This document shows, in pieces, positions 5,407 through 8,075 of a stretch of DNA of 24,742 nucleotides. Numbering within the stretch: position 1 is the first letter of the stretch; every line of letters begins with the position of its first letter. Source of the DNA: a virus; IMG/VR virus record IMGVR_UViG_3300044624_002338, positions 1 through 24,742 of that record. The stretch is one strand, 5' to 3'. The position numbers and the translations under genes are program-made. The notes below the pieces were generated by a model. The model was not told the DNA's origin, did not search any database, and saw only the letters and a program-made list of their open reading frames with translations.

Positions 5407-6015
5407 TTAAAATTTGTGGTCAGCCGGTTCACATATCATTTCTAATTCGTCCCAATGAAATTTTGGTTTTTCATTTAGAAATACAAAACATTTCCATTTA
5501 TTTGATTTTTCAAAGTAAACGTGTTTTTGTAAATATGATGGGATTGCTGCCCCAGTTGGTACTCTTTTAACAGGAGTATCAAAAAAAGTTTTTATTAAAA
5601 CGGTGATTGGTTCTACATCATCCCACTTACGAATTTGTTCTTCTAACATTCTCCACTCACCTCTATTAAGATATTGATTTTGCATTATTGAATTTAGATA
5701 TGAAAACGTCTGCTTCAAATTCGCTTCATTATCAGAGAATGTTGCCGCAGGAGCCCCATGTCCTTTATCATAAATGTTACCTTTATAATCTTCACCATCT
5801 GAAGTTTTAATTCCCTTCTCCATATAGAAATCCATATGACCTCTATTAACATTTGTAGGGCGGTTTGTAGAACGATACTTAATGATTAGTGGTTGTTCTA
5901 ACGATTGTGAATAAAGTACTTCAAACACTTCATTCTTAACTCTCACATCAGGTAGTTGTCCAAACGATGTTAAGGAAACGATTAAAAACGATAAAAGAAA
6001 CATCAATTTTTTCAT
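5407..6015 (-). CDS. Secreted DNA/RNA non-specific endonuclease (NucA/EndA-like)
   Basis: I place the start at 6015, giving 202 aa beginning MKKLMFLLSFLIVSLTSFGQ. This is a clear signal peptide with predicted signal peptidase I cleavage near SFG-Q, a pattern common in Bacteroidota. The longer ATG at 6081 would overlap the polymerase gene and bury the signal. The mature part matches the beta-beta-alpha metal non-specific nuclease family: YDKGHGAPA (residues 82-90) is the DRGH-type catalytic motif with H86 as general base and Lys in place of Arg, and QNQYLNRGEWRMLEE (112-126) is the metal-binding Asn/Glu region. The family degrades DNA and RNA in the periplasm or outside the cell. A TATTTATA element lies 25 bases upstream of the start, so it may have its own promoter. 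Host-nucleotide salvage or exclusion of other DNA are possible roles, both inferred. Confidence 0.85.
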   Translation of the reverse strand: MKKLMFLLSFLIVSLTSFGQLPDVRVKNEVFEVLYSQSLEQPLIIKYRSTNRPTNVNRGHMDFYMEKGIKTSDGEDYKGNIYDKGHGAPAATFSDNEANLKQTFSYLNSIMQNQYLNRGEWRMLEEQIRKWDDVEPITVLIKTFFDTPVKRVPTGAAIPSYLQKHVYFEKSNKWKCFVFLNEKPKFHWDELEMICEPADHKF

Positions 6016-6039
6016 ATTATAGCATATTTTTGTATATAA

Positions 6040-6047
6040 TATAAATA
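6040..6047 (-). promoter_or_regulatory. Late-promoter-like octamer TATTTATA upstream of the nuclease gene
   Basis: The coding strand reads TATTTATA 25 bases before the preferred nuclease ATG at 6015 and just after the polymerase stop codon. Its position supports the shorter nuclease start. No terminator hairpin is seen between it and the polymerase gene. Confidence 0.4.
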
Positions 6048-6053
6048 TGACTG

Positions 6054-7337
6054 TTATAACTTTCCGTAATCTAAACCCCAACTTGCTTTTACAGGAAACC
6101 CACTACCTTCAATGATTTCCTTCAATCCTTTAACCAATTCTTTATCCACATCAGTAGGAACATCAAAAAGGAATGAATCATATGTGTATAAACAAAACTT
6201 TATATCACTCCCCTTTATATAATCCAATACCTTTCCCATAACATCTACGTTCATCTCAGTCTCAACCGCTTGTAGTAGATAGTTAAATACTTTTTGTGGG
6301 TTTGGTTGTTCAATCCACTCCAAAGGAATAATACGATGGGGTGTTTGTAAGTACCCCAGCTTTTGTGTTTCAATCCATAGGTTATCAATGTAATCAGCTA
6401 CGGCATTAAAGTATGGAATTTGGCGGAAATCATCATCAATACCACCATACAATAATTGGAACGTAACCCCTTTGGATTCCTCAACACTACACCCATATTG
6501 GTCAGCTAACCATTGGTGTACGTTACCATCCGGCATTTCGAACTTAATCAACTTACCGATAAGACGAGGGTGATACGCATTATAATCCATTTGTAAGAAT
6601 ATCCCATCCGATACAAACACATCTCTACTACCATCCGATTTATTCAATGCCGCATAGTTCACACCACCATGACGATTGGATGGACGACCGGTTACGGTGA
6701 ATGGATTGTATTCGGTATATACCACATCTCCTTTTAAGTGTTTCTGGGCTTGTGGCCATCTATCAATAAATTTTTTCTCATCGACCCGAACCCCATATCC
6801 CTCAATCTCTGAAAGGGTTGGAATGAAGATATCGTTGTACCAATTATAAGTTTTAGATTTTTGTCTATAAGTTTTTCTTAATTCCGGTTCTATCGCTTCC
6901 GCAAGTTTAAGAATGGGAATAGATTGAATGACATCTTCTTTGTAACCTTTGTGTAATAAGGGAGCTACCAGGTGTTGTAGTGGTTGTTGGTAGTCTATCG
7001 TTTCACCTGTTTTTAAGAAATAAGCGGTATCAATGTCATTCAATCCTTCCCTTATATTTTGAAACGATTGTAGTAGCTTTTTCTTTTGGAATACCCACTT
7101 ATCCCCTTTTGTATTTAAGATACCCTCTATTAGTGATTTAGAGAGTGATAGAGAGTCTGTATGTTGATGTGGTAGGATATATCGGTCCGTCAAAGTTCTT
7201 ACGAAAATAAAGGATATATGTGTGTTTCGTGGATGTTTATCGTTATCCACCCACATAGGATACCAAACCGATGGTTCAGTTTCCAAAATCCTCTTTAATT
7301 CATCAATCTCACCAATATTTTCTACTATCCTTATCAT
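6054..7337 (-). CDS. Compact divergent family-A DNA polymerase
   Basis: This 427-aa protein carries the family-A polymerase motifs in order. TGRPSN (216-221) resembles the TGR.S motif. LQMDYNAYHPRLIG (248-261) is motif A, with D251 and R258 in register with DYSQIELR. SKGVTFQLLYGG (288-299) is motif B (K289, F293, Y297, G298). FNYLLQAVETEM (351-362) resembles the conserved QGTAAD helix region. YTYDSFLFD (384-392) is motif C with D387. Oddities: the motif A Glu used as steric gate is His here (H256), and motif C HDE is YDS. Residues 1-170 have no recognisable 5'-3' exonuclease and at most a degenerate 3'-5' exonuclease. T4 itself uses a family-B polymerase. The start overlaps the upstream 94-aa gene by 29 bases, suggesting translational coupling. 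Whether it is the replicative enzyme cannot be told. Confidence 0.8.
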   Translation of the reverse strand: MIRIVENIGEIDELKRILETEPSVWYPMWVDNDKHPRNTHISFIFVRTLTDRYILPHQHTDSLSLSKSLIEGILNTKGDKWVFQKKKLLQSFQNIREGLNDIDTAYFLKTGETIDYQQPLQHLVAPLLHKGYKEDVIQSIPILKLAEAIEPELRKTYRQKSKTYNWYNDIFIPTLSEIEGYGVRVDEKKFIDRWPQAQKHLKGDVVYTEYNPFTVTGRPSNRHGGVNYAALNKSDGSRDVFVSDGIFLQMDYNAYHPRLIGKLIKFEMPDGNVHQWLADQYGCSVEESKGVTFQLLYGGIDDDFRQIPYFNAVADYIDNLWIETQKLGYLQTPHRIIPLEWIEQPNPQKVFNYLLQAVETEMNVDVMGKVLDYIKGSDIKFCLYTYDSFLFDVPTDVDKELVKGLKEIIEGSGFPVKASWGLDYGKL

Positions 7338-7593: not shown

Positions 7594-7645
7594 ATATACG
7601 AAAAAATCCCCAAATTACCAAATGTAAATTGAGGATTCAAAAAAA

Positions 7646-8032
7646 TGGTGGAGATGAGGGGAATCGAACCCCTGTCTTACGAAGTAATCATAATACCAGC
7701 ATGTCACACGTTTAGGATAAAGTTTAATCTTACAAACTTTCCAAAATAATTGGGGCCGTATGGTTAGTACAGCTTTCCACCAACCCATCAGTTTTAGAGA
7801 GCCGATAGGTAGAGCTCCTTTTTGTTCACTTCTTTTTTAAACCCCATGAGTGATACGGGAGGTGATTAGGCTGCTACAGCTAAATCAGCACCCATGAATG
7901 ACATTACATCATCAAAGGTCCAAGTAGATAATTCTACGTCAGTTATTGTTTTGTACAGATTTAAAGACATCTAGCACTTCTGTCTACGTGTGGTACTACC
8001 ATTCTCATCGCAATCAAATCCATGGCATCCCC
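7646..8032 (-). ncRNA. ssrA: tmRNA (transfer-messenger RNA)
   Basis: A 387-base tmRNA. The 5' end GGGGATG pairs with CATCTCC near the 3' end as a 7-bp acceptor stem with a G3-U70 wobble, the identity element for alanyl-tRNA synthetase. Discriminator A and a template-encoded CCA follow (7649-7646). A T-arm with GGTTCGATTCC precedes it. Helix H2 forms between CACACGT near the 5' end and ACGTGTG near the 3' end. A pseudoknot after the reading frame pairs GGTT with AACC and GCTGTA with TACGGC in interleaved order. The tag frame probably resumes at GAC (7940), since TAAC at -5 to -2 fits the usual U-A at -5/-4, and stops at TAA (7868-7866). The 24-residue tag starts DVELS and ends MGADLAVAA, an AA-ending ClpXP-type degron. 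Known role: trans-translation rescue of stalled ribosomes. The gene is complete, not an att fragment. Confidence 0.95.
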
Positions 8033-8041
8033 ATATAATTA

Positions 8042-8049
8042 TGTAAATA
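8042..8049 (-). promoter_or_regulatory. One-mismatch late-promoter-like octamer (TATTTACA) before the tmRNA
   Basis: The coding strand reads TATTTACA, ending 9 bases before the mature tmRNA 5' G at 8032. If it acts like a T4-type late element, transcription would begin at or very near the mature 5' end. tmRNA 5' ends are normally made by RNase P, so this is only a suggestion. Confidence 0.3.
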
Positions 8050-8075
8050 TACGAATAATAATTTAGATTACCAAA

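Follow-up and report, generated by a model that had tools for sequence, protein, structure and literature searches.

A phage-borne one-piece tmRNA with a 24-residue tag of a conserved and widespread type

Genes for tmRNA (ssrA) are carried by 402 of 18,146 phage genomes, about 2% (PMC9004378), and an earlier list of phage tmRNAs names mycobacteriophages and Bacillus phage G (PMC4131195). In the literature searched, these RNAs are mostly listed and their tags little studied. The Bixzunavirus and Myrnavirus mycobacteriophages (Janiyra, Phabba) encode one-piece tmRNAs with tags of 25-26 residues, and ATDTDATVTDAEIEAFFAEEAAALV is a previously known long tag of mycobacteriophages. One-piece tmRNAs are also found on the large Enterococcus phage vB_Edu_21C1 and Bacillus phage G, where the tags are short (AKNEELLAVA and AKLNITNNELQVA, respectively). 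The tmRNAs of the marine phage Melnitz and of cyanophages are likewise phage-encoded (PMC9004378), but two-piece with a permuted gene order, and that of Melnitz is associated with a glutamine riboswitch. Here we describe a one-piece phage tmRNA with a long tag, which has neither the permuted order nor such a riboswitch. Phage tmRNAs, some with 25-26-residue tags, are already known; what is new is this widespread tag variant.

The window, i.e. the whole stretch of DNA analysed, is an IMG/VR virus record of 24,742 bases. ARAGORN reports a one-piece tmRNA on its minus strand as the sole tRNA or tmRNA gene, 387 nt at 7646..8032, and the Rfam family RF00023 matches it over model positions 1-374 without truncation (81.8 bits, E 1.4e-30; gathering score 47 bits). 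A permuted two-piece gene was considered and is ruled out by the one-piece call and by the score of the corresponding model RF04321, which at 28.3 bits stays under its cut-off of 47. Bacteroidota cell tmRNAs score about 150-205 bits among the Rfam matches listed, so that the lower score of the window marks its tmRNA as a divergent RNA. The surrounding genes encode a tail sheath, tail tube, baseplate hub, tail fibre and endolysin, and the source is therefore a contractile-tailed phage. A sequence-only reading had proposed a complete phage-borne tmRNA; the ARAGORN call, the full-length RF00023 match and the position in a virus record amid tail sheath, tail tube and baseplate genes bear this out, and its coordinates, strand and tag frame were all reproduced. 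Downstream lies a gene for a 427-residue protein (6054-7337, minus strand) with a partial match to the phage DNA polymerase family phrog_17 (E 2.6e-12), which is located inside the structural gene region and is a constant neighbour of the tmRNA. It is adjoined by a DNA/RNA non-specific endonuclease gene (5407-6081, minus strand; PF01223, E 2e-17), the product of which has a signal-peptide-like N-terminus.

Relatives were collected from IMG/VR by protein searches with the neighbouring genes and by matching the tag tail as a DNA pattern, and ARAGORN together with direct reading gave 104 distinct tmRNAs, counting the window. For several relatives ARAGORN chose a wrong tag frame (e.g. VNKPEHYLSAP), and reading near the resume site gave the standard tag. 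In 66 of the 75 loci with enough flank, far more than chance would give, ARAGORN places the tmRNA upstream of the polymerase-like gene and in the same orientation; 6 more of these loci have the tag reading frame. The earlier statement that phage tmRNAs are rare is thus right for phages overall and wrong within this phage group, where the gene is near-universal. Homologues of the window's baseplate gene occur at 27 of 95 tag-found loci, a lower bound as some loci are short, and the tag therefore spans phages whose gene neighbourhoods differ. Matches to the exact tag-tail pattern number at least 120 in viral contigs and zero in 84,980 bacterial and archaeal species genomes, a negative that covers this exact tail and no other. 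A tblastn search of a phage collection with tag peptides was insensitive, missing a 25-residue tag annotated there, and carries no weight here.

The acceptor stem of the window tmRNA consists of seven base pairs, all formed, in which G1-G7 at 8032-8026 (minus strand) pair with the 3' strand, G3-U70 included. The segment at 7646..7673 (minus strand) holds this 3' acceptor strand, a complete T-arm, the discriminator A and an encoded CCA. These features agree with the alanine identity assigned from sequence alone. Across the 104 tmRNAs, G3-U70 is retained in 102, the seven-pair stem is fully paired in 102 and the discriminator A is present in 103. A complete CCA is encoded by only 47; the other 57 end in CAA, CTA and other variants, and there the host CCA-adding enzyme would be needed. 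Covariation across relatives was found in H2 and in the T-arm.

The predicted pseudoknot before the tag, PK1, lies at 7941..7987 (minus strand; approximate limits) and has stems AGACA/UGUCU and GUGC/GUAC. A pseudoknot score of 22 is reached by PK1 in 78% of 49 distinct segments versus 6% of shuffles; the window-type segment (L234) scores 21, just below this threshold. Several sequence versions of PK1 exist among the relatives, and both stems are preserved in each. Further pseudoknots after PK1 were noticed by eye in the alignment of the relatives, without a formal count. Past the tag, the differences among relatives involve entire pseudoknot-like modules and not point changes (e.g. L087 versus L001), which suggests modular exchange among phage tmRNAs. 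The resume context AAUAACU (7941..7947, minus strand), with U at -5 and A at -4, directly precedes the first tag codon, and these two bases are readable in 103 of the 104 tmRNAs, the last few by eye. An H5-type hairpin at 7863..7887 (minus strand; fold z -3.5) contains the last tag codons and the stop, and its pairings are conserved across relatives.

The tag reading frame occupies 7866..7940 on the minus strand, running from GAC at 7940-7938 through 24 codons to TAA at 7868-7866, and encodes DVELSTWTFDDVMSFMGADLAVAA. The long tag with an AA end, as first read from the window, proved typical of the family: all 104 tmRNAs carry one tag type of about 22-26 residues, with the consensus [DAG]xELSTxTFEDAMAFVGADYAVAA, and all end in AA. 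The AVAA of the window gives a small hydrophobic C-terminus as in ClpXP-targeting ssrA tags. Since part of the 104 had been found by the tag pattern, selection was tested only on the tmRNAs found via protein genes, which were not chosen by tag. In this subset the tag frame has a pN/pS of 0.46, whereas column shuffling gives 1.09 on average and a value this low only once in 200 shuffles; the frame is under purifying selection. That about 100 distinct tmRNAs retain this tag family across differing neighbourhoods points to selection on the peptide as such. The tag core was found nowhere outside tmRNAs in the collected loci, and the tag strings do not occur in a relevant context in the literature searched. 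A single match in the PDB, the repeat protein SAKe6FR, was rejected, as its individual stretches are not significant.

That the long frame is kept for RNA structure and not for its peptide is a reading to which we give very little credence. The last codons do sit in the H5-type hairpin and apparently change in a compensatory fashion, the alanine codons GCT/GCA and GCA/GCT being swapped between its arms in equal numbers, as a compensatory swap would give; the contrast in pN/pS nevertheless speaks for coding, and the core is mostly upstream of this hairpin. It is also very improbable that the RNA chiefly titrates SmpB or blocks host trans-translation. Molecules consisting of the tRNA-like domain only, such as that of phage DS6A, have been proposed to act in this way and do inhibit tmRNA (PMC4131195), but such a decoy would not need a complete tag frame under purifying selection, a preserved resume context and an H5 hairpin. 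Least credible is the reading that the phage picked up a host gene recently, or keeps the remnant of an integration site, and gains no function from it. Prophages are known to integrate at host ssrA genes (PMC9004378); against this, the exact tag tail that is absent from the species genomes is common to many phage contigs, and the gene has a fixed place among structural genes. We reject both the decoy and the capture.

Other long phage tags were compared with that of the window. The tags of Janiyra and Phabba end in LV and not in AA, their host group differs, and the window tag has no detectable relationship to the mycobacteriophage tags (shuffle fractions 0.05-0.64). A divergent tmRNA on the 484-kb phage LR756508 would have a tag of about 36 residues when read by eye, ending in PAAV, and ARAGORN identified no tag in it. 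A motif shared by the window tag with the mycobacteriophage or LR756508 tags was plausible by eye and not significant on testing.

The host is probably a member of the Bacteroidota, as judged from the promoter type (see below), the similarity of the sheath to that of Flavobacterium phage immuto (51% identity over 52% of the query) and a sheath relative (47%) on a contig of a Flavobacteriales MAG. Set against this, the sheath match to Microcystis phage Mel-JY01, at 47%, covers 99%, more than that to immuto. Bacteroidota cells have one-piece tmRNAs of the same architecture, with G3-U70, a GGGGxTG acceptor strand, D, A or G as first tag residue and an AA end. In a sample of 68 Bacteroidota tmRNAs, skewed towards better-scoring matches, the tags are 9-10 residues long in 66, with one of 12 and one of 19 (e.g. 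GENNYALAA, DNNYSYRLAA, DNNYSYSLAA, ANDYSYAMAA), in contrast to the 24 residues of the phage-borne version. The pattern search in Bacteroidota used a stop-to-T-loop spacing of 200-230, a range outside which the phage gene itself (about 193) falls, and it is likewise given no weight. In the phage tag, both ends (D/A/G...YAVAA) are host-like, and the roughly 14 residues between them form a phage-specific core. The view that the tag is unlike host tags consequently holds for the core; the first residue and the YAVAA-type end resemble those of Bacteroidota tags such as GENNYALAA and DNNYSYSLAA.

Partner proteins were sought in the larger relatives. A search for SmpB that detects 10 of 14 controls came back empty for 20 large phage records, some of them fragments, and no SspB turned up in either the 16 large contigs of relatives or the 26 Bacteroidota genomes searched. 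The search for a general phage-encoded Clp system among 16 large phages with this tmRNA family gave only scattered Clp genes, with ClpA/ClpB-like unfoldases in 2 of the 16 and ClpP-like proteases in 2 of the 16. The unfoldases, on large contigs L424 (1478-3469, minus strand) and L425 (680-2704, plus strand), are double-AAA proteins of 663-674 residues that belong to the ClpA/ClpB kind and carry the sequence GIGF around the position of the ClpP loop. The ClpP-like matches (G047:C1:32436-32939, minus strand; G048:C1:145179-145682 and 111324-111869, both plus strand) could be head proteases. In G001 and G002, the large relatives closest to the window, no Clp unfoldase or ClpP match reaches comparable strength; they carry only a weaker AAA match of a different kind.

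These results bear on the idea that the core diverts tagged proteins from the normal route, to another unfoldase or adaptor, to a phage Clp component or to a protected fate. Conservation of the core across phages with different gene neighbourhoods would fit such a diversion, as would the unfoldases and proteases found in a few of the large phages; on the other side stand the host-like AA degron retained at the tag C-terminus, the lack of comparable Clp matches in G001 and G002 and the lack of SspB in the 16 large contigs. We therefore regard diversion as possible and, on balance, doubtful. The likeliest function would be tagging for host ClpXP.

A Bacteroidota-type promoter-like site precedes the gene at 8044..8075 (minus strand), with TTTG at 8075-8072, a spacing of 20 nt and TATATTT at 8051-8045. 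The full motif occurs in 50 of 92 upstream regions of relatives versus a shuffle mean of 1.7 and a maximum of 6. A terminator-like hairpin with a T run follows the 3' end of the tmRNA at 7604..7638 (minus strand; -14.5 kcal/mol, z -4.4), though it is not among the calls of a strict terminator scan. With the promoter-like site upstream and the hairpin with its T run downstream, the tmRNA looks like its own transcription unit. The suggestion that it acts in late infection found no support; nothing points to such timing, and the promoter-like site matches the type used for host housekeeping transcription.

Taken together, we consider it highly probable that this is a working phage-encoded tmRNA, for which we infer the following route. 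The RNA would be transcribed alone from the host-type promoter and folded, after which host AlaRS would charge it with alanine via G3-U70. Host SmpB would serve to bring it to stalled ribosomes, as no phage SmpB was found in the large records. The ribosome would then switch to the GAC at 7940, add alanine and the 24 residues, and be released at the TAA, and the host-like AA degron should direct the product to host ClpXP. The phage-specific core, STxTFEDAMxFVGAD, would most likely provide an unfoldase or adaptor contact or an accessible engagement segment. We suggest, tentatively and with the balance of probability against it, that the core may be a distinct recognition signal set in a host-like degron and shared by many large Bacteroidota phage lineages, by which the phage would determine the protease, adaptor or fate of the proteins it rescues. 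The sequence FVGADYAVAA is a ready mass spectrometry marker for infected communities, and the conservation of the tag opens to direct test why phages carry ribosome rescue of their own and whether they steer what becomes of tagged proteins.
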